22,298 nt of DNA from a virus. The notes under the pieces were generated by a model. It worked only from the letters and a program-made list of their open reading frames with translations, did no database searches and was not told the DNA's origin. Shown piece by piece: positions 4,994-17,675 of the stretch (its first letter is position 1; each line of letters begins with the position of its first letter). The DNA lies in IMG/VR virus record IMGVR_UViG_3300025598_000197, positions 1-22,298 of that record; one strand, 5' to 3'. A program made the position numbers and the translations under genes.

Positions 4994-7225
4994 TTAGAAC
5001 CTCACTCTTAATTCATGTTCAAACTCAAACGTGTTAACGATGAACGCTGGCGAACTGCTGGTCATGGTTAACCCTAAATACTTACCGTACTGTTCTGCGT
5101 CTGATTTGTACAACGCATATCCTTGTGAAGATGTCCAAATTATCGTCTTAGACGAATTATTTGTCCAACCTATTGTTTGCAAAACATTATTTATCCAAGT
5201 TATTTCATTGGATAAAACATATTGTGGGCTAGACCCATTTTCCGAGTCTACTGTGACATCAAAAATACCACCTTGCGACAATGTAGCTTCAACCGCAAAT
5301 TTCAATGCTTGTTTTGTCCGTATGGGGTCACCCATGTCTTGCAAAGCAGTTTGTATGTAACTATTGATGGGGCTAATTGAATCACTATACAATTGTTTTA
5401 ATACTTTATTAGTATCTGTAGCGTACAAATTAACTGTGCCATTAAAAGGCACAGACGTGATATACGATAAAGCTCCCTGGCTGGTAACAAACCATTTTTT
5501 CTCAAAGAACACGCACTGTATGTACCGTGATCCACCAGAACCAAACGGGAAAGAACTGTTTACATAGAAGTTAAATACCGCACACAAAATGTTGTTGAGC
5601 AGTGCTTGACCAGCCGTTACAGGTTTGCTGAAATCTATGTAAGGGAAAATACCATCTAACGGGTCTGAAATTTTGGTTGTTGTAGAACCGACCAGGGCAT
5701 AAATACCATAGTCGTTCATAAACAAAACGGACCTGAAATACGGGAATATGGCGTATATCCGCTTAGTACCAATAGATGCACTGACGTTGGTGTTGGTGAA
5801 CACCGTAGCCCCCGTAGAGGTCACCTGAAGGTCAGAAAACACGTTGATACTGTCATCGCCAAACACATACAAGAAGTTATTGGCTGATAACAAGCCTTGA
5901 ATGTTACCGTGTAACGTACTATCTGTAATATTGAACGCCACAGCAGATACAGACGTAAAATCTGTGGGGCTTGTAGAGGCAGATGCGTACACTGTGCGCC
6001 CAGCTGCTACCCAAACACGACCGCTAAAAGTGGCTACATCCACAATTTTGTTGGTATTTATGGTTGCGCTGATGTTTGCGCCTGATCCAGTACCACCAGA
6101 AATGCTCACAGCTGGAGCTGAAGTGTATCCAGAGCCTGGATTGTTCATCACCACTTCTGTGATCACATTACCGCTAATAATGGCAGTTGCATTTGCATTT
6201 GTACCGCCTCCACCAGTAATGGTGACCGCCAGATTGCCATAAGGTCCATACCCAGAGCCCCCATTATTGACTTGGATGGACACTGTACCCGTGGCAAAAG
6301 TCACGAGTTGGGCTATGGCGTTGGCATTTGTGCCCCCACCGCCTGATATGGTCACACTAGGTTGATTGATGTATCCACTACCCGCATTTGTGAGGGTAAT
6401 TGAGTTAACAATGCCTGTGGATAAAGTTGCATTGGCAGTTGCACTAGAACCACCACCCCCAGAAATGGTCACAGACGGGGGGTTGAGATAACCAGAACCA
6501 GGTGAAACCACAGAAATGGCAACCACATTGCCACCAGAAATAGTAGCTGCACCGACAGCTGTGTTTCCACCCTGTACATCAGGTGTACTAATAATGACTT
6601 TGGGCACAGACGTATAGCCTGAACCCGTATTGGTCATTTGGATGCTTAAAACACCGCCAGAACCAGAGGTGATGCTAGAAACAGCCGTTGCTTGCACCCC
6701 GTTGGCATTATCTGGGGGAGAAATGGTGACGTTAGGGGCAGATGTGTAATTGATGCCAGGGTTTGTAATTGCAATCAAGCCTACAGACCCAACGGGAATC
6801 AAACTTGTGCCATTCCAATCATACAAACCTTTGGTTGGGTCACCAATGAAAAGGTCCGTGTTTTGGTACTGAGCAGCTGCTACACCCGTGTTTGATAAAG
6901 TTCCAGCACTTGCAATGGTTACCATCGCATTGCCTTGTAAGTCATATCCCTGTGCACTGCCGTCTGACTCAAAAGCAACAACATAATCGTCTTTGATGTT
7001 GGCAGAATAAAGAGCTGTGACATTACTGGTAAACACCACGCTATTGCCAGCGTTGCTGACGTTAGAGCTGGTGGGAATAATGCGCATATTGCCAGCCCCA
7101 ATAGGCATGGCATTTTCTATCCAGTAAAACTCATCTTTATCAATAGCGGTCCTATTGGCCTTGGTGTCAAGACCTTTAAAGTTCTTAATGACCGCATAAG
7201 ATTTCTTTTGTTCTGCGGAGGCCAT
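4994..7225 (-). CDS. Tail hub / stabilisation-like protein with inserted GSGY repeats
   Basis: A 743-residue protein from ATG 7225, chosen because GGAGG lies 6 bases before it; a TTG two codons upstream is the alternative. The N-terminus has NFKGLDTKANRTAIDKDEF, then a segment of the kind that opens podovirus neck or hub proteins. Residues about 150-395 hold six tandem units of about 40 residues built on V-x-x-I-x-x-x-x-x-GSGY-x-x-x-P-x-V-x-I-S-GGGG. The region after them (about 400-600: FSGRVWVAAGRTVYASAS, LYVFGDDSINVFSD, YGIYALVG) reads as beta-propeller blades, like P22 gp10. Its place right after the neck adaptor supports a hub or tail-sealing role. The family match is by eye and should be treated as likely, not proven. 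Confidence 0.7.
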   Translation of the reverse strand: MASAEQKKSYAVIKNFKGLDTKANRTAIDKDEFYWIENAMPIGAGNMRIIPTSSNVSNAGNSVVFTSNVTALYSANIKDDYVVAFESDGSAQGYDLQGNAMVTIASAGTLSNTGVAAAQYQNTDLFIGDPTKGLYDWNGTSLIPVGSVGLIAITNPGINYTSAPNVTISPPDNANGVQATAVSSITSGSGGVLSIQMTNTGSGYTSVPKVIISTPDVQGGNTAVGAATISGGNVVAISVVSPGSGYLNPPSVTISGGGGSSATANATLSTGIVNSITLTNAGSGYINQPSVTISGGGGTNANAIAQLVTFATGTVSIQVNNGGSGYGPYGNLAVTITGGGGTNANATAIISGNVITEVVMNNPGSGYTSAPAVSISGGTGSGANISATINTNKIVDVATFSGRVWVAAGRTVYASASTSPTDFTSVSAVAFNITDSTLHGNIQGLLSANNFLYVFGDDSINVFSDLQVTSTGATVFTNTNVSASIGTKRIYAIFPYFRSVLFMNDYGIYALVGSTTTKISDPLDGIFPYIDFSKPVTAGQALLNNILCAVFNFYVNSSFPFGSGGSRYIQCVFFEKKWFVTSQGALSYITSVPFNGTVNLYATDTNKVLKQLYSDSISPINSYIQTALQDMGDPIRTKQALKFAVEATLSQGGIFDVTVDSENGSSPQYVLSNEITWINNVLQTIGWTNNSSKTIIWTSSQGYALYKSDAEQYGKYLGLTMTSSSPAFIVNTFEFEHELRVRF

Positions 7226-7227
7226 GA

Positions 7228-8088
7228 TCAACCTCCAGAACTATAAGGATCAGGAATTCTTCTAGTAAACGTGCTGTTAAGTACGTTCAGAATGTGTTTG
7301 TCGTATTGTTGTTTGAAAATTTCAGACTCACCGTAAGATTGTTCGTAAAACTTGGCTTTGTACGCTGCATAGTATTGCACAGCCGTTGAATACGGATCAA
7401 TGATGTTATCAACAGTATTTGGACTGCTCAATGACAAAGGATTGGGCAATATGTTGGTATCTACTTCAATGTAGTATTGCTGATCTGGGATGGGGGCAAT
7501 GTAGATTTGTTGTTGACCGTACACTGAAAAGCAAACGGGTCTACCCACATAGTTTTGCCAGTACCGCAACTGCGCTGTGAAATTAGACCAGGGCAAATAG
7601 CGAAGAGGTATCCGAGAATTGCCCCAGTAAAGGTTAATGTTGACAATATCGTAGACATTTAACTGTTGAGGTAATGAGTTAAAGTTGATGATCTCAGCGG
7701 GTCCTACATACTGCAACATGGCTGTGCCATCTGCAAAAGGCGTGGTAGGAGGGAAAGGATTGGTTCCCGTAGGATATGCGGGGGCTGAACTACCAGATGT
7801 GCCACTTTGAGTGTACACATAGGTATAAATGTTAGAAAACACATACTGACCAGCGGTAACAGCTGTGTTACCTTGCCATAACGTGGGAGAAACACCAGTG
7901 CTAGTGCTGGTGTTGTACGCTAGGGGAGCGGTTGTAGTTTGAAGGGTTCTTAGGCAACCAGTGTCTCGGACAGTTCTTTCCCTGGCCTCGTTGATGTACG
8001 TTGTTAACTGGTTTTGCGTCCAGAAAACATTGTTAACATCATGCAACAGGTTCTCAACTTGAGACAGGTAATCATTGAGGGTTGCCAT
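7228..8088 (-). CDS. Head-tail neck adaptor-like protein (P22 gp4 type) with inserted domain
   Basis: A 286-residue protein. The first 50 residues (LNDYLSQVENLLHDVNNVFW, then INEARERTVRDTG) form the helical start typical of phage adaptor proteins that sit under the portal. The C-terminal half (QQIYIAPIPDQQYYIEVDTN, then DPYSTAVQYYAAYKAKFYEQ) is also characteristic: a strand with I-x-P-x-P followed by a long helix. Residues about 67-130 are an insertion with W71-Q-G, VTAGQYV, GTSGSSAPAYPTG and DGTAMLQYVG, resembling small carbohydrate-binding-type beta domains in phage and bacterial proteins. No clear ribosome site precedes the ATG. The next gene starts three bases beyond its stop. Adaptor role: good confidence; binding role of the insert: inference. 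Confidence 0.75.
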   Translation of the reverse strand: MATLNDYLSQVENLLHDVNNVFWTQNQLTTYINEARERTVRDTGCLRTLQTTTAPLAYNTSTSTGVSPTLWQGNTAVTAGQYVFSNIYTYVYTQSGTSGSSAPAYPTGTNPFPPTTPFADGTAMLQYVGPAEIINFNSLPQQLNVYDIVNINLYWGNSRIPLRYLPWSNFTAQLRYWQNYVGRPVCFSVYGQQQIYIAPIPDQQYYIEVDTNILPNPLSLSSPNTVDNIIDPYSTAVQYYAAYKAKFYEQSYGESEIFKQQYDKHILNVLNSTFTRRIPDPYSSGG

Positions 8089-9269: not shown

Positions 9270-10292
9270 TTATAGTGACAAGTAGTTGTAGCCAGTGATC
9301 TTAGACATTGACTTGGGCTTGACAGACACCAATTCAGCAATCATAAGAACAGCACCGACATAACCGATTTGCCAGTTGGGAAGAGTGGACTCAAACCCTG
9401 TAAACACAAATGAACCTTGCTCGTGGATATACAAGCTCAAGTAGTTGGTGTTCAGGAAGTACACTGTACCTTCTGGGCAATATGGATCGGGATAGATTGG
9501 CACACCAGCAACCATCAAAGCTCTGAATGCAGCTTGAGGGCCGTTGTTGTCACCGTCAAAGCCTGATCCAGGTGTGATGACGTATTGCTCTTGACCAACA
9601 AAGTCTTGAGCCAACAAAGTCCAAGTACCAAATCCGCAAACACCGAATGAGGGCATTTCTGCACCTTTTTTCACTGTTCCAGAGATGTATTGGAGAATGT
9701 TTTGTCTTGTGGGGTTTACGTTACCAGCGTTGTAAACCTTGGACTGCCACCATGTGTATGTGGAACGGTTGATGTTACCGTAAGTCGTTTGGTAAGCAGC
9801 ACCACCAGTACCATCATCCACAGCAGCGGGCAAACCGATGAACTGTTGATTGTTTGTGGTGTTGTTGTACAAAGCTGTTGCCATCGCATCCATCATCACG
9901 TTGGTCGCATCGTTCATGCGGGCCTCGATCAAAGGAATGATAGCAGCGTCTTGTTGAGCCACACCTTCCATACCGAGGAACGGTACGGGAGAGATCATCA
10001 ACTTGAGGTCGTACTCGGCATTGTAAGCACCTTGTTGGACTGACGGCTGGGCAAAAGAGCCAGAGTAGTCAGACCATTGAGCGTTCACAAATTGTGCGCC
10101 TTGGACGGGAACGGTTACAGAAGATACACCACCGCTGGCTTGTTGACTGTTAGCAATCAACGCTGCCATGAGAGGCGTAGAGTTATACAGTTGTACAACC
10201 AGTTTGGGGATGAACGCACGTCTTGTAACGTAAGTTAATTCCGTAAACTGACTTGACCCTGTTTGAGGCAGAATACCGCCACCAATAGCCAT
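9270..10292 (-). CDS. Major capsid protein
   Basis: A 340-residue protein, predicted to form the icosahedral shell with the HK97 fold. ATG 10292 is preferred because AAGGAG lies 8 bases upstream; an in-frame ATG at 10316 has no ribosome site. An N-arm region (LTYVTRRAFIPKLVVQLYNS) is followed by a beta-rich E-loop-like stretch (VSSVTVPVQGAQFVNAQWSD) and a long helix (IPLIEARMNDATNVMMDAMA). The C-terminal part has IYPDPYCPEGTVYFLNTNYL, FVFTGFES and a final VSVKPKSMSKITGY, a common ending for capsid proteins of environmental phages. It follows a scaffold-like gene, as expected. Family assignment is by pattern and position. Confidence 0.88.
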   Translation of the reverse strand: MAIGGGILPQTGSSQFTELTYVTRRAFIPKLVVQLYNSTPLMAALIANSQQASGGVSSVTVPVQGAQFVNAQWSDYSGSFAQPSVQQGAYNAEYDLKLMISPVPFLGMEGVAQQDAAIIPLIEARMNDATNVMMDAMATALYNNTTNNQQFIGLPAAVDDGTGGAAYQTTYGNINRSTYTWWQSKVYNAGNVNPTRQNILQYISGTVKKGAEMPSFGVCGFGTWTLLAQDFVGQEQYVITPGSGFDGDNNGPQAAFRALMVAGVPIYPDPYCPEGTVYFLNTNYLSLYIHEQGSFVFTGFESTLPNWQIGYVGAVLMIAELVSVKPKSMSKITGYNYLSL

Positions 10293-10344
10293 AGTTAGCT
10301 CCTTAAAGACGGGCATTTCTGCCCAAACAAATGATTACCCTCTT

Positions 10345-11088: not shown

Positions 11089-11577
11089 TTACATTGGGGG
11101 GGGCATACCGCCACCAGGAGGTGGAGGTGGGGGTGGAGGCATTCCACCACCAGGTGGTGTCATACCAGGAAGTGGTCCAGCAGCCATGGCTTTACCTTCA
11201 GGGGTAGCACCACCAGCTTGAGGGAGAGATTGCAACATCTGAATGATTTCAGATTGTTGAAGTTCGTTGGTTTTGTTTTTGCGTGGTCCAAGAATTTTGT
11301 TCAGAGTAGAAATGGCAGACAGGATTGACTTGCCTTCTTCTGTGTTGGACCCAATAGATGCGAGAGACTGCTCAAGCAAGTCTTGAGCCATCCCGAGATT
11401 GATCATTGATGCTTCTTTAGAACCCATCTTAGGTTCTGGCGTTGACATCGGTGCGCCCATGGGAGGAGTTTCAGCATCGGGTGTAGGTTGGGGCAAACCA
11501 GATGTTGCGGGAATAGGAGTCCCAGCGGACCTTGGTCCACCCATCAATTCCATCAGTTTGTCTTGAGGTACACTCAT
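11089..11577 (-). CDS. Pro/Gly-rich late protein between portal and scaffold genes
   Basis: A 162-residue protein. Residues 1-55 are Pro-rich and disordered (PPMGAPMSTPEPKMGSKEAS). Residues about 55-120 form helices (MINLGMAQDLLEQSLASIGS, then GKSILSAISTLNKILGP). The tail (about 125-162) is low-complexity Pro/Gly, with eight prolines in a row flanked by GGGMPPP on each side. AAGGAG lies 6 bases before the ATG. Proteins of this layout recur between portal and scaffold or capsid genes in environmental phages as I recall, with no known role; assembly or protease-like functions are not supported by any motif. The poly-Pro/Gly DNA is repetitive and prone to length variation. Confidence 0.75.
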   Translation of the reverse strand: MSVPQDKLMELMGGPRSAGTPIPATSGLPQPTPDAETPPMGAPMSTPEPKMGSKEASMINLGMAQDLLEQSLASIGSNTEEGKSILSAISTLNKILGPRKNKTNELQQSEIIQMLQSLPQAGGATPEGKAMAAGPLPGMTPPGGGMPPPPPPPPGGGMPPPM

Positions 11578-11632
11578 TTAAATCTCCTTACCCGTGTTTG
11601 TAACCATTTAATCACCTGTTGTCAAGTGAGGT

Positions 11633-11658
11633 GGGAGGTATTTAGCGACATACCCCCC
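11633..11658 (-). other. RNA hairpin downstream of the 10-residue gene
   Basis: GGGAGGTAT (11633-11641) pairs with ATACCCCCC (11650-11658), with one mismatch in 9 and an 8-base loop. On the minus-strand transcript it lies just after the stop of the 10-residue ORF. No T-run follows, so it does not look like a terminator. A matching arrangement follows the 12-residue ORF. Confidence 0.45.
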
Positions 11659-11680
11659 AATGTCGGTTCATCCTTGCGGA

Positions 11681-11713
11681 TTACTTACGCTTATGTTTAC
11701 GTCCACGTTTCAT
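11681..11713 (-). CDS. Tiny ORF for 10-residue basic peptide MKRGRKHKRK
   Basis: ATG-AAA-CGT-GGA-CGT-AAA-CAT-AAG-CGT-AAG-TAA encodes MKRGRKHKRK: eight of ten residues are Lys, Arg or His. A textbook ribosome site, AGGAGG, lies 6 bases before the ATG, stronger than most genes in the window. It resembles the 12-residue product at 11784-11822 in the core MK-x-GRKH-[RK], though codons differ at Gly, Arg and His. This points to selection on the peptide and not to recent DNA duplication. It is far too short for gene finders. A nucleic-acid- or protein-binding peptide acting in head assembly is a guess from charge and position between portal and scaffold. Confidence 0.55.
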   Translation of the reverse strand: MKRGRKHKRK

Positions 11714-11732
11714 GGTGAGCCTCCTGATAAGC

Positions 11733-11756
11733 GGTTTCTCATCAAGGGGAGAAACC
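11733..11756 (-). other. Perfect 8-bp RNA hairpin between the two tiny ORFs
   Basis: GGTTTCTC (11733-11740) and GAGAAACC (11749-11756) form a perfect 8-bp stem with an 8-base loop. On the minus-strand transcript the hairpin follows the stop of the 12-residue ORF and ends about 7 bases before the AGGAGG of the 10-residue ORF. Without a T-run it is not a standard terminator. It may affect ribosome access, mRNA processing or stability. Confidence 0.55.
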
Positions 11757-11783
11757 ATACCCTTCTTCCTTTGCAAAGAAGTC

Positions 11784-11822
11784 TTAACGTCTTGTCTTGC
11801 GGTGTTTTCTGCCGTATTTCAT
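11784..11822 (-). CDS. Tiny ORF for 12-residue basic peptide MKYGRKHRKTRR
   Basis: ATG-AAA-TAC-GGC-AGA-AAA-CAC-CGC-AAG-ACA-AGA-CGT-TAA encodes MKYGRKHRKTRR, with eight basic residues of twelve. AGGAG lies 7 bases before the ATG, and the ORF begins 13 bases after the stop of the preceding 56-residue gene, so it sits in the late operon like an ordinary gene. Its similarity to the 10-residue product 70 bases downstream, despite different synonymous codons, argues against chance. No function is known to me; the charge suggests binding to nucleic acid or to acidic virion parts. Confidence 0.55.
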   Translation of the reverse strand: MKYGRKHRKTRR

Positions 11823-11835
11823 GGTGTACTCCTGT

Positions 11836-12006
11836 TTAAGTTCTTGCATAACTACGCTGGGTTCTTCCCCCAGACGAGTTTTTAACACCAGTTTGACGGT
11901 ATGTCAAACCTGGACCTGAAGTTTGTTTTTTCAGGGTTTCTGAACTCACTCTTGGCTGGTCTGCTTTAGATTGAACTTGTGGACCGCCAATATTTTTAGT
12001 AGCCAT
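11836..12006 (-). CDS. Small 56-residue late protein, function unknown
   Basis: An open frame encodes 56 residues, MATKNIGGPQVQSKADQPRV onward, ending GGRTQRSYART. ATG 12006 overlaps the portal stop (TGATG) and has AAGG 6 bases upstream; an ATG one codon earlier (12009) has poorer spacing. The product is basic, polar and probably disordered, with no Cys and no membrane segment. It follows the portal gene and precedes the two tiny basic ORFs, suggesting a head-assembly accessory role, but nothing in the sequence proves it. Confidence 0.65.
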   Translation of the reverse strand: MATKNIGGPQVQSKADQPRVSSETLKKQTSGPGLTYRQTGVKNSSGGRTQRSYART

Positions 12007-13643
12007 CATTCACCTTCTTTCTTAGGACCTTTGTGTTCTGGTTTACCTTTTGAGGGTGGAGGAGATGGGGGTTTCCCACCTTGCTGTGCCTCCAATTTCT
12101 TGAGCCTATCCAACAACTCTTCTTTCATGGGGGGTTCGATCAACTCAATCAAAGACTTTTTGTCAATAGCACCAGCCTTGAACAAGTTGAAAGCCATTTG
12201 GCGGTTGTCTTCCATGAAGATGGGAGAGTTGGAGTGAGCGTCCACTTTCACTGTAAAGTTTTTGGTGAACTGCTCGGCTATAAATGTATTGCCTTCTGTG
12301 TCTTTGAACCGTGTATCGTCATACATTTGCATGGCTTTGAGATACAAGGTAGCCATTTTTTCTAACGAGTCCTCAATGATGAGGGCACGTTTTTTGGTAC
12401 GACTAGAGCCAAGTCGGGCCAGCTGGCTTGCATGACCAGCCGACCGTACCCCAGCTTCGCCCTTACCCGACAAAACATTACCGATGCCTGATGCCTCTTC
12501 AAACATGGCATCAACTTCACGAATTTCTGTGAATAGATCAGGTGGCATATTGGGAGCCATCTTCTCTACTTTTGCGTTGGGCATATCTGTGGATAACAAA
12601 CCGCCCGCACGATTAAGCGCAAAATTCTTTTCATCCAAAATGCCCGTGAATCCAATCAAGGCCGTGGGAGGAGACACTTGCTTGGACAATATGTCTAAGA
12701 TTTCAGTCATGCGTCTGTTGCGCAGCTGCTGCAAGTAGATCAGGCGTTGAACTTCAGAACCACCCCAGAAGTAATCGTAAAGTGGGTTGGGACAGACTTG
12801 AATGAAAGGCAACTCACCCTTCATGAACAACTCTTCACCTGGGCGGTCATAAATGATCACGTCAGGATCAGCTTTGGTTACAACTCTGTAATCTCTTTCA
12901 TCATCGTCCCAGACATAAAGTTCAGTCATCTCGACTGTCTCTTCTGCCACTTCCGCTTTGTAGCGGTTACCACCTGACAAGTCTAGATTGACGTTACCGT
13001 AAATGGTGGGGTTGGATTGGGAAATGATGATGCGTTCTAGGCCGTTTGCAATTTCAGTTCTCTCGTGTGGCATAGACCCAACACGAGCAACAATGGCCTC
13101 CCTGTTGGGATGCGAGTAGAGGCGGGCATACAAGTCACTCTTGGTGATGTAGTATTTTTGAATGATGGCCTCTTGCCTGTCTGCGTAAGTCAAGTCTTCA
13201 CGCAAGACTCCCATCGTAGACGGTTCAACCATGTAAGGCTGAACAGTGCCATTCATCATGACCAGTTTGACAAAAGTTGTACCGTAGGCAAGTGACCAAG
13301 TGACCGCAGAAGAAAATACTTGATCAGCGTTGGTATTTAGCCACTCATCGTTGAGTGCTTTTGTCAGGACTGGAACTTTGTGATGTTCGCCTGGGGGGAC
13401 AGATGCCCCCAGATTGATGCTGAACCTCGTAGTCTCGGCTGAATATAAAAACGAGGTGAGTTGATCAATGTGGGGGAAAATTTTATTGTACAGAGCTGGG
13501 GCTTCGTCAGGCCCGTTACCAAAAAGATACCAATTGCGCAGACCCGCATAGTCAACCTTGCGGGCGTTTAAAGACACCTCACACTTGTAGATGACTTCAC
13601 GGAAAAAGATTTCTCTCTCTAGCGCATTCTTGGGTATCTTCAT
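12006..13643 (-). CDS. Portal protein
   Basis: A 545-residue protein forming the ring at the capsid vertex through which DNA is packaged and to which the neck binds. The early part has RNWYLFGNGPDEAPALYNKI and FPHIDQLTSFLYSAETTRFS; the middle has ELPFIQVCPNPLYDYFWGGS and QRLIYLQQLRNRRMTEILDI, a typical wing-to-stem transition. The C-terminal third contains VKVDAHSNSPIFMEDNRQMA, then FNLFKAGAIDKKSLIELIEP, a pattern common in portals of environmental podo- and siphophages. The end (about 515-545) is a Pro/Lys-rich tail. The ATG overlaps the stop of the upstream gene (ATGA). Its place after TerL and before scaffold and capsid agrees. Confidence 0.88.
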   Translation of the reverse strand: MKIPKNALEREIFFREVIYKCEVSLNARKVDYAGLRNWYLFGNGPDEAPALYNKIFPHIDQLTSFLYSAETTRFSINLGASVPPGEHHKVPVLTKALNDEWLNTNADQVFSSAVTWSLAYGTTFVKLVMMNGTVQPYMVEPSTMGVLREDLTYADRQEAIIQKYYITKSDLYARLYSHPNREAIVARVGSMPHERTEIANGLERIIISQSNPTIYGNVNLDLSGGNRYKAEVAEETVEMTELYVWDDDERDYRVVTKADPDVIIYDRPGEELFMKGELPFIQVCPNPLYDYFWGGSEVQRLIYLQQLRNRRMTEILDILSKQVSPPTALIGFTGILDEKNFALNRAGGLLSTDMPNAKVEKMAPNMPPDLFTEIREVDAMFEEASGIGNVLSGKGEAGVRSAGHASQLARLGSSRTKKRALIIEDSLEKMATLYLKAMQMYDDTRFKDTEGNTFIAEQFTKNFTVKVDAHSNSPIFMEDNRQMAFNLFKAGAIDKKSLIELIEPPMKEELLDRLKKLEAQQGGKPPSPPPSKGKPEHKGPKKEGE

Positions 13644-14562: not shown

Positions 14563-16318
14563 TCTTGCCTCCGTATACCCCAATCATCTTGAGATAGTTA
14601 CTCACATTTTTACCCACAGCGATCTGTTCGGGGGTGTATTCATCTTGTTTGGTGGACATGGCCTTTGTCAAGCGTTGTGCAATGAGTCTAGGCTGGACTT
14701 GTTCAGCCCATGCAATGGTTGCTAAAGCAGATGCAATCACTCTATCGTCTTTGCCACGGCCTGGTGCGCCAATGAACCCGTCTTCACGAACAATGCCTTT
14801 CATTTCTTCTAAGGTGTCCATGCTGTAGATGCCCATCATGCCCCTCTCAAAGTAATCTTTCATGTAAGAAAGCATCCGTTCTTTAGAAGAACTGGTGGTC
14901 ACAAATCCGATGGAACTAGAGAGGCCACCCATGTTGTCTAGTCTGCGCCAGATGTAGTTGGACATACTTCCCAGCACGTCCATCAAACCCCGACCAGCCC
15001 CGCCTTCCATGGCGGCTGCTAGGCGTTTAAGGTTGCGCAGTTCGTTGATGACTGCCTGACCTGGGCCGTTGACCTCTAGGTTAAGCGTACTATTCTTGTA
15101 GGCCCCCGCCAAGTGGGCAATGACCCATGCAAATTGGTAGGTGTTGAGTTCGCTGGTTGCAAACTCTGCGACCTGGTCAAGACCATCAGCATAGACTCGA
15201 TACACCTGGATGCAGAATCGGTCTGCCCAATCTGAACTTCCGTAAGCTGGGTCTGCACCAATAACGTAGTAGGCGGTGTCAACGGGCTGTTGCCAGATTC
15301 GCAAAGTGGCGAGTCTGTCTGTACTTTTGAGGACTTCTGTATCCTGGAAGAGTTGACCAAAAGCATACCTGTAACATTCATAATCCAGTCCTTTTGCATA
15401 TTTAGCTGCATCTGTGCACCGTGAGTTTGAAAAGAAAGAAGTACCCGTCATTACAAAAGCGTAATCCTCGGTGGGTGGAAACTCTTGGTACATCAAGGTT
15501 TCGTCCTTGATGCCCTCGTACATCTTCCATCTCCACCAAGCCATTTGCCGAGAGTTGATTTCAACCCCGTATAGTTTTTTGATTTCCTTGACCCATTCCT
15601 TTTCTTCAGGCTTGAGTTTGCCGTCCCAGTAAACTTTGTATTCTTTGGACTCAGCGTCTACAGAGTAATACTCGTTTCTCCACCAGCCACAGAAGATAGC
15701 CCGTTGTGTACGGGCTTTCTTGGCGGTCTTGTACATATCATGGAACATATTGAATCCTTGGGCGGTGGATTCAAACATATAGAGTCGTTCAGGGTTCTTC
15801 TCAGCTAGTGAGGCAATCAGCGAGGCAAGTCCTTCTTCGTTACCCCAACTGGCGGTTTCAGTACCGTGAAGATAAGTGATGGCCTTACCTTGGCCCAAGC
15901 GAGACTTATTACCAGCGATTTGATAAAAAATCCTTGACCTGTTTTTAAGGACCATTTGATTTCTATTGTGCGCCACCAAGGGTATCTTGTACTCTTTGGG
16001 CAAGCCATCAATGTACATTCCAAGCGTAGACCTAAACATATCTCTGTTTTCTTCAGTGTCTGCCACAAGGGTTCCTTGCCACCCAGGATGCGTGAACTGC
16101 CAATAAAGATCAAGGGCCAGCGACACCGTTGTGATGCCGAGTTGACGTCCTTTAAGAATAACAAAGAAATGGACATCTTGTTCTAGCCCTTTTTGTATCT
16201 CTTCCATCACATACATTTGAGTGCCCAGAAGTCGACCCATCTTTTTCAGGCCTTCTTCCTTTGTCTCAATCTTCAGTTCTGCACAGAACTTGTAGAACTG
16301 TTGTAGGTTGAATTTCAT
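14546..16318 (-). CDS. terL: Terminase large subunit (packaging ATPase and nuclease)
   Basis: A 590-residue protein that pumps phage DNA into the prohead and cuts it. The ATPase half shows a Walker A-type KGRQLGITT (about 56-64), a Walker B/catalytic-Glu region ITYLHGTETASW (about 147-158) and FESTAQG (182-188), the usual coupling motif. The RNase H-like nuclease half shows GADPAYG (D356), LEVNGPG (E415) and GKDDRV (D524/D525), the three acidic motifs. Length suits the family. ATG 16318 overlaps the upstream stop (ATGA) and is preferred over a TTG five codons earlier; neither has a good ribosome site, so translation is probably coupled. Confidence 0.93.
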   Translation of the reverse strand: MKFNLQQFYKFCAELKIETKEEGLKKMGRLLGTQMYVMEEIQKGLEQDVHFFVILKGRQLGITTVSLALDLYWQFTHPGWQGTLVADTEENRDMFRSTLGMYIDGLPKEYKIPLVAHNRNQMVLKNRSRIFYQIAGNKSRLGQGKAITYLHGTETASWGNEEGLASLIASLAEKNPERLYMFESTAQGFNMFHDMYKTAKKARTQRAIFCGWWRNEYYSVDAESKEYKVYWDGKLKPEEKEWVKEIKKLYGVEINSRQMAWWRWKMYEGIKDETLMYQEFPPTEDYAFVMTGTSFFSNSRCTDAAKYAKGLDYECYRYAFGQLFQDTEVLKSTDRLATLRIWQQPVDTAYYVIGADPAYGSSDWADRFCIQVYRVYADGLDQVAEFATSELNTYQFAWVIAHLAGAYKNSTLNLEVNGPGQAVINELRNLKRLAAAMEGGAGRGLMDVLGSMSNYIWRRLDNMGGLSSSIGFVTTSSSKERMLSYMKDYFERGMMGIYSMDTLEEMKGIVREDGFIGAPGRGKDDRVIASALATIAWAEQVQPRLIAQRLTKAMSTKQDEYTPEQIAVGKNVSNYLKMIGVYGGKNATTQ

Positions 16319-16980
16319 AGAGGCGTTCTGCAAGGTTTCATGTTCTCAGGCTTGAATACGCCTGTGCGTATACCCTTACAGACGTTGTAAAACAGCTCTG
16401 CGTTCTGTGGCATTCGTCCTTGGTACAAATGGAACACACCTCCTTCAAAGTGCGTTCCTATGCCGTACTGACCGTAAGTGTGCAAGTTCCATGGACCTTC
16501 ATCAGGGTCTTTGAAGTAATGGGTTGGGTAGAGTGTTTTGTATTTGACCTTGTATATCTCGGCTGCATAGCTGACGTTTTCGCCCACATCGCAGTTCTCG
16601 TTCTCAGCAAAGCTGGGTCTGCCCATGTCATCCCAGATGTCTCTGTGGATGGCAAAGAATGCGGGGGCTGCATAGATGTGCGAATAAGGAGCAATGTGAT
16701 TGCTCACCTGTGCAATGCCCACCATGCTTTTGTTGTGTAAGGCATAAGCAATGGCTTTGTCCACAATCTCTTTGTTCATAGGTACACAGTCAATATCCAA
16801 GAACAACTTTACTTCTGCCATGCTGGACATCATGATGTTGTCCATCCAAATGCCGTGAGGTATCTCTTGCTCTGTGTAGTTGACTTTGATACCCAGATGT
16901 TCACAGGTGGCTTTGTGTGCGTTCACAATTTTGGAATCAACACTGGGCCAGTGTAAACAGTGAATTTGAGGTTGCATCAT
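16315..16980 (-). CDS. Putative glycosyltransferase-like protein (DxD motif)
   Basis: A 221-residue protein. It contains KLFLDIDCVPMN with a D62-I-D64 motif after a hydrophobic strand, the nucleotide-sugar/metal site of GT-A fold glycosyltransferases. Other features are WMDNIMMSS (about 45-53), AAPAFFAIHRDIWDDMG (about 104-120) and GGVFHLYQGRM near the C-terminus, consistent with an acceptor-side region. It is short for a GT and no family is certain. It starts in ATGA overlap with the GT2-like gene upstream and ends in ATGA overlap with TerL, so the three are translated together. Likely substrates, such as a virion protein or host glycan, cannot be read from sequence. Confidence 0.7.
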   Translation of the reverse strand: MMQPQIHCLHWPSVDSKIVNAHKATCEHLGIKVNYTEQEIPHGIWMDNIMMSSMAEVKLFLDIDCVPMNKEIVDKAIAYALHNKSMVGIAQVSNHIAPYSHIYAAPAFFAIHRDIWDDMGRPSFAENENCDVGENVSYAAEIYKVKYKTLYPTHYFKDPDEGPWNLHTYGQYGIGTHFEGGVFHLYQGRMPQNAELFYNVCKGIRTGVFKPENMKPCRTPL

Positions 16981-17675
16981 CGGGGTATCGTCCTTGCTAG
17001 TTTGTAAATGTCAACAGAATCTTGTGTTTGAAAAATAATCTGAGAATCCTTGGGGGGCTGTTCACCAAAGTCTTTGTAATGCTGTGTCACCCTCGTTGAG
17101 TAGTTGACAGTGGGTTTGAGTGACCTGGCAATACGAGGATTGTGGTTATTGACGTGTGCCCACATATGCCTGTCACCCAGTGCACAATCAGCTTGTGACT
17201 TAAAAAGCCAATTTCTTAGCAAATGAAATGTGGGTTTTGTAAACAGGTAACAGTTGGTGTCGTTAAAGGCATACCCGTCTGATTCCTTGTCCACACACAT
17301 GAAAGTCCCGTTTTCACGGAACAAGTTACGAGGACAGGTGACGATCTCAGTGCCACTCTCGTTCAACACCCCAACCATGTACTCCACATGATCAGGTTCA
17401 TACCAGCAATCGGCATCTAAAAAACAAATGGCATCGTAGCCTAGACCAGATGCAACAGCTGCGCCAATGCCTCTAGGAGTGTCTCCAAAGTCTCCAGCGT
17501 TTGGTAAGCGTATGTGAGTAACTCTTGCGAATCCATCTAAGCCCTCATAAGGTTCCCCGTCCGACACCATAAAATGGTGCACTTCCTTGTAAGTTTGTTT
17601 GGCAACGCTTGCTATACACTGCCTCAACGTCTCTTCACTCTCCGTGTAGTACGGAGTCACTACTGCTACCCTCAT
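16977..17675 (-). CDS. Family 2-type glycosyltransferase
   Basis: A 232-residue GT-A fold enzyme that would move a sugar from a nucleotide donor. The N-terminus MRVAVVTPYYTESEETLRQC is a classic GT2 start, followed by SVAKQTYKEVHHFMVSDGEP with D39 in the uridine-binding position. ICFLDADCWYEPDHV carries the DxD motif (D87-A-D89). A later segment has TNCYLFTKPTFHLLRNWLF and ADCALGDRHMW. It lies in the late operon just upstream of the second GT-like gene and TerL, with ATGA overlaps on both sides. It has no membrane segment, so it probably acts in the cytosol. Donor and acceptor are unknown. Confidence 0.8.
   Translation of the reverse strand: MRVAVVTPYYTESEETLRQCIASVAKQTYKEVHHFMVSDGEPYEGLDGFARVTHIRLPNAGDFGDTPRGIGAAVASGLGYDAICFLDADCWYEPDHVEYMVGVLNESGTEIVTCPRNLFRENGTFMCVDKESDGYAFNDTNCYLFTKPTFHLLRNWLFKSQADCALGDRHMWAHVNNHNPRIARSLKPTVNYSTRVTQHYKDFGEQPPKDSQIIFQTQDSVDIYKLARTIPR

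Follow-up and report, generated by a model that had tools for sequence, protein, structure and literature searches.

The window analysed here is the whole 22,298-nucleotide (nt) stretch of IMG/VR virus record IMGVR_UViG_3300025598_000197 (22.3 kb; its relatives reach 34-36 kb), and our subject is a pair of very small genes in it, the open reading frames (ORFs) ORF1 and ORF2, together with the RNA structures that accompany them. All features located below by window coordinates lie on the minus strand. ORF1 (11784-11822) encodes the 12-amino-acid (aa) basic peptide MKYGRKHRKTRR behind the ribosome site AGGAG, and ORF2 (11681-11713) encodes the 10-aa basic peptide MKRGRKHKRK behind the Shine-Dalgarno sequence AGGAGG (11720-11725). 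A sequence-only reading of the window had proposed both ORFs, and its coordinates, strand and ribosome sites were reproduced exactly, as was its observation that the two genes use different codons for Gly (GGC/GGA), Arg (AGA/CGT) and His (CAC/CAT). It had also placed the pair between the portal and scaffold genes, where no larger gene would fit. The portal-to-scaffold location holds, but a 56-aa gene (11836-12006), whose own reading frame is kept in relatives, separates the portal gene (12006-13643) from ORF1, and therefore the pair sits between the 56-aa gene and a 162-aa gene (11089-11577). The gene order is thus portal, 56-aa gene, ORF1, ORF2, 162-aa, 60-aa and 176-aa genes, and major capsid gene (9270-10316); the 176-aa gene is probably the scaffold, as judged by its position.

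Related loci were collected by searching with the window portal, with two more divergent portals, and with peptide patterns for ORF1 and ORF2. The portal protein search gave 80 loci, and both ORFs were found in every one with sufficient downstream DNA; the pooled portal and peptide-pattern searches gave several hundred. The class of micro-genes that had been predicted in related phages therefore exists over hundreds of IMG/VR contigs: the family is found in hundreds of uncultured phages, mostly freshwater, where it adjoins head genes. Chance ORFs were excluded as an explanation. Specifically, both strands of the window and of the complete 35.6-kb relative MW202753 were scanned for ATG-started ORFs of 8-25 codons with at least 50% Lys/Arg and a Shine-Dalgarno sequence; exactly these two ORFs were obtained per genome, and they are conserved in nearly all relatives. 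An extended ORF2 with a TTG start further upstream, which would give 31 aa in the window, was rejected as well, because a stop codon closes that frame in 134 of 189 distinct gaps. Gene finders had been suspected of missing the ORFs owing to their length, and in two annotated Manatee Spring relatives both ORFs are indeed present and unannotated. Minus-strand hypothetical genes were instead called across the region in these two genomes (MW202753.1, 4740-5038; MW202825.1, 25683-25943), and these are probably spurious.

Since peptide-pattern searches can bias the sample, the key coding statistics were repeated on loci from portal homology alone. Compared with their nearest sequences, these loci carried 99 synonymous and 17 non-synonymous single changes in ORF1, where a synonymous share of 29% is expected (p 7e-37), and 57 and 13 in ORF2 (p 2e-19), corresponding to an omega of ~0.07-0.09 for the two genes. 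The pattern was reversed in the other two, shifted frames, so that the synonymous excess was limited to the proposed frame. This excess, together with the retained charge, indicates selection on the peptides, as the codon differences had suggested. The ribosome site was strong in 167/178 and 175/178 of the portal-selected ORFs, weaker in the rest and absent in none. The sequence-only reading had named frameshifts, stop changes and loss of the ribosome sites among relatives as evidence against the genes. Such changes are not the rule, since 178 of 178 pairs keep the site, although one gene or both are gone from single lineages. From these comparisons it is near certain that ORF1 and ORF2 are real genes under selection on their amino acids. 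Furthermore, CGT/CGC account for 98% of the Arg codons in ORF2, whereas the major capsid gene reaches 71% and the portal gene 60%, a bias consistent with high expression.

Lysine and arginine make up nearly all of the family's peptides. In the portal-selected loci the peptides are 10-16 residues long with a net charge of +6 to +9, and a few start-extended forms reach 17 residues or slightly more. The clade consensus is MYK-x(1-2)-KRGRKTRR for ORF1, and M(A)RK[AG]RKGRK[ASG]RK or M(A)RKARKHKRK for ORF2. Both share the C-terminal pattern basic-basic-small-R-K-small-basic-basic, and the final two residues are nearly always R or K. In very divergent copies (L266, with MYKKVTKKVTRTTRRR and MARGRKAHKKMRKSKR, and also L337) the charge is kept and the sequence is not; the L266 peptides retain their length as well. 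Retention of charge and length despite such divergence points to composition more than to an exact recognition sequence.

We next counted the copies in 154 lineages, defined as portals less than ~96% identical, in a pool that mixes portal-found and peptide-pattern-found loci. Both peptides were present in 126 lineages, ORF2 only in 17, ORF1 only in 2, three peptides in 8 and none in 1; the corresponding numbers in the portal-selected subset of 67 lineages were 52 with both, 11 with ORF2 only, 3 with three and 1 with none. Copy number thus ranges from 0 to 3 while the cationic character is constant. Explained by parsimony on the portal tree, the pattern takes ~10 changes of ORF1, 3 of ORF2 and 6 of the third copy. 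The three tandem basic micro-ORFs lie downstream of the portal in L305, L307, L337, L361, L372, L385, L425 and L465, and the additional copy, which comes first, often resembles MARKSKKGRKSCK. The lineage without peptides, L435 (6654-6900; portal 66%), has no micro-ORF and no pseudoknot of the kinds described below, and a promoter directly follows its 56-aa homologue. At the other end of the family, a distant clade (L454 and relatives) whose portal is only about 41% identical to that of the window lacks ORF1 and retains ORF2 (MARRGRRHKRK, MRKGRRHKRK) with the pseudoknot that precedes it. This pseudoknot and ORF2 are therefore the oldest part seen, because both persist at ~41% portal identity. 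These distributions bear on one alternative for the role of the peptides, namely that their targets lie in the host (ribosomes, nucleoid or membrane) and not in the head. Small cationic peptides can generally bind many anionic targets, and the single-lineage losses would fit host-dependent use; on the other hand, the position of the genes, between portal and scaffold/capsid genes, is the same in every relative, the 41% clade included, and we consider a host-directed role quite improbable.

The intergenic regions of the locus contain further conserved elements. While the sequence-only reading was right about the genes, it overlooked two covarying pseudoknots, a promoter before the head operon and the variation from 0 to 3 copies. 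Pseudoknot 1 (11733-11763) is an H-type structure with S1 AGGG/CCCT and S2 GGTTTCTC/GAGAAACC, and it ends 19 nt before the ORF2 ATG. In an alignment of 47 diverse sequences its pairing held in 93.8% of cells, and both sides had changed at 8 of 12 pairs; double-change cells numbered 66 compared with 17 in shuffles, and slid controls were at most 62% paired. Note that these counts were taken from the alignment, as a free descriptor search sometimes chose other foldings. Pseudoknot 2 (11633-11665), also H-type, lies after ORF2 with S1 CGAC/GTCG and S2 GGGGGGT/ACCTCCC. Among 27 distinct sequences it was 88% paired, with 61 double-change cells compared with 18 in shuffles; this figure is for the alignable branch only, since the branch with long G/C runs was poorly aligned by MAFFT. 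Neither pseudoknot matched Rfam at the gathering score or at E<=1, and no U-run terminator was seen by eye after either pseudoknot in the window. Folds also gave two hairpins. One, from single-sequence folds, stands directly 3' of the ORF1 stop (11762-11781) with its 3' side touching pseudoknot 1, and it is seen at the same place in most relatives with an unconserved loop; the other, TCC-GCAA-GGA (11671-11680), is short and lies directly 3' of the ORF2 stop. A boxB-like GNRA hairpin was considered as a peptide target and dropped because the hairpin loops vary.

Pseudoknot 1 is closely tied to ORF2. Its end lies 18-23 nt, typically ~21 nt, before the ORF2 start codon, and when sites were gathered by scanning the viral collection for its sequence and adding the loci from the earlier searches, all 163 intact sites preceded a basic micro-ORF (4 more were cut by contig ends). 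Lineages that lost ORF1 kept pseudoknot 1 with ORF2 (L225, L229, L231, L270 and L291), and in the ORF1-only lineages L118 and L102 ORF2 and pseudoknot 1 were lost together. Pseudoknot 2 was retained without ORF2 in L118, and in the promoterless lineages (L190, L248, L337, L422 and L291) its end lies about 19-21 nt ahead of the start codon that follows. Because of this spacing to start codons and the linkage of pseudoknot 1 with ORF2, both pseudoknots belong beside a ribosome site. The same observations bear on another possible role, in which the pseudoknots would be mRNA stability or processing elements guarding the 5' ends of cleaved operon segments, and the peptides separate cationic proteins. 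The intergenic position of both structures and the retention of pseudoknot 2 in L118 would agree with this, whereas the fixed distances to start codons (18-23 nt for pseudoknot 1 and, in lineages without the promoter, about 19-21 nt for pseudoknot 2) point to the ribosome site. We regard such a role as unlikely, and it would in any case be compatible with the peptide part of the explanation that we favour below.

A promoter-like sequence, TTGACA-N17-TACAAA (11597-11625), lies directly 3' of pseudoknot 2 and before the 162-aa gene, the first gene after it. TTGAC[ATG] follows pseudoknot 2 in 341 of 349 loci, and a -10-like hexamer lies 16-17 nt from this element and scores above shuffled sequence. 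A strong TTGACA-type promoter thus heads the scaffold/capsid genes, and its position right after pseudoknot 2 is conserved. In several L454-clade members a promoter-like sequence is instead found upstream of pseudoknot 1, and this clade has a second basic micro-ORF (MAGRPRGARVKRRTKRY or a similar peptide), whose end meets or runs past the start of the 162-aa homologue. These arrangements matter for the main rival of the favoured explanation, leader-peptide control, according to which translating ORF1 or ORF2 would remodel the hairpins and pseudoknots and set the expression of the next gene, through pauses that the nascent basic chain would cause at basic codons or at the stop codon, with the free peptide inert. 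Three observations speak for leader control. Each ORF runs straight into structured RNA, behind which stands the next ribosome site; conservation is highest in the C-terminal basic residues adjoining the stop codon; and in the distant clade ORF2 lies near the start of the presumed head-operon transcript and the next micro-ORF reaches the start of the following gene. However, sequence and length vary while charge is constant, pseudoknot 1 persists after loss of the preceding ORF, and the main head promoter is downstream of both ORFs in most lineages; moreover, there appears to be no obvious signal for Lys/Arg-rich leader peptides to sense. Leader control is accordingly a serious but rather doubtful alternative.

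The explanation we favour, with moderate confidence, is that the products of ORF1 and ORF2 are free cationic micropeptides with a nucleic-acid-binding role in head assembly, and that pseudoknot 1 controls the translation of ORF2. It builds on features established by comparison across relatives, namely the genes with their ribosome sites and purifying selection, the covarying pseudoknots with their spacing, the link between pseudoknot 1 and ORF2, and the codon bias. The two genes would yield abundant free polycations (10-17 residues, about +6 to +9), presumably late and with the head genes. The peptides would bind nucleic acid, most likely genome DNA as it is packaged or condensed within the head, and may also bind acidic surfaces of head proteins. 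Pseudoknot 1 would be a translational control element next to the 30S footprint, and pseudoknot 2 may act likewise on read-through transcripts. An economical circuit would be one in which excess peptide binds the pseudoknot and so stops its own production, in the manner of T4 gp32 and the pseudoknot in its leader. Three observations weigh against the favoured explanation. Peptides and pseudoknots are both missing from L435, so at least one relative can do without the module; control by pseudoknot 1 is not universal, since L337 lacks this structure despite its three micro-ORFs; and in most lineages the promoter stands between pseudoknot 2 and the next gene, which leaves pseudoknot 2 outside the transcript from that promoter. 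More tentatively, we suggest a stronger form, which we think less likely to hold: these free-standing genes of 10-17 codons may be a class not seen before in tailed dsDNA phages, with products that serve as encoded counter-ions for genome packaging; the genes would be present in 0-3 tandem copies, and their output would be tuned by binding of the peptide to the pseudoknot in its own mRNA.

Other features of the window concern the phage itself. Matches to a portal, a large terminase (TerL) and a major head protein indicate a tailed double-stranded DNA (dsDNA) phage and not a single-stranded DNA (ssDNA) microvirus. The C-terminal tail of the 162-aa protein is rich in proline and glycine, PPGGGMPPPPPPPPGGGMPPPM (11089-11221). 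A 745-aa tail or connector protein (4994-7231) contains repeated YTSAPxVxIS-GGGG segments, which match numerous unrelated tail and head profiles. Upstream of the terminase, two neighbouring genes (16315-17675) look glycosyltransferase-like by eye, and one of them has a weak GtrB-like match and no more. Four portal matches were in metagenome bins assigned to a betaproteobacterium (two), Legionella and Alphaproteobacteria; no host can be assigned from these bins because binning of phage contigs is unreliable. In Hydrogenobaculum phage 1 (TerL 32%) the gene order differs, and neither portal nor capsid is annotated beside the terminase.

Taken as a whole, the sequence comparisons support a family of cationic nano-genes that is real, conserved and unannotated, and that comes with new RNA pseudoknots. 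Conservation over hundreds of viral lineages is thus possible for protein genes of 10-13 codons, even where public annotation leaves their DNA blank or misannotated. The two pseudoknots are new phage RNA structures with strong covariation near ribosome sites, where viral examples are very few, and the system is compact and directly testable with a synthetic peptide and a 31-nt RNA. If the peptides condense DNA, they would represent a protamine-like strategy, which to our knowledge is not known for tailed phages; if peptide-pseudoknot autoregulation is true, few known protein-RNA autoregulatory circuits would be as small.

Among known systems, the microvirus J protein was the first comparison. 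J guides the genome into the procapsid, and its C-terminal end is buried in a hydrophobic capsid pocket. J coats replicating DNA at ~120 copies (PMC13386984), and VP8 of SpV4 has 38 residues and an isoelectric point of 12.9 (PMC11281519). These proteins resemble the micro-ORF peptides as very small, very basic phage products, but are two to four times longer and belong to icosahedral ssDNA phages, whereas the micro-ORF carriers are tailed dsDNA phages; furthermore, the micro-ORF peptides end in basic residues and have no hydrophobic or aromatic C-terminal anchor. Because the identity fails on genome type and C-terminal anchor, we did not file the micro-ORFs as J proteins. We also know of no tandem copies or pseudoknot leader for J or VP8. 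The adenovirus core peptide mu is protamine-like, short and rich in Arg, and it neutralises packaged dsDNA; it is released from a precursor by cleavage, whereas the micro-ORFs are free-standing genes and occur in tailed phages. The leader of T4 gene 32 was named in 2010 as possibly the sole viral pseudoknot in autoregulation of translation (PMC3014915). The micro-ORF system resembles it in having an H-type pseudoknot, here supported by covariation, in front of a phage gene's ribosome site, and the gene 32 product binds nucleic acid, as the micro-ORF peptides are proposed to do. However, the T4 pseudoknot is 67 nt before the start codon, compared with 18-23 nt for pseudoknot 1 here, and the T4 product is a folded single-stranded DNA-binding protein, whereas the micro-ORF product has 10-17 residues and its autoregulation is a proposal. 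Finally, the leader peptides of attenuated operons share with the micro-ORFs a tiny ORF beside an RNA structure upstream of another gene, but what the micro-ORFs keep is their overall charge and not one regulatory codon.
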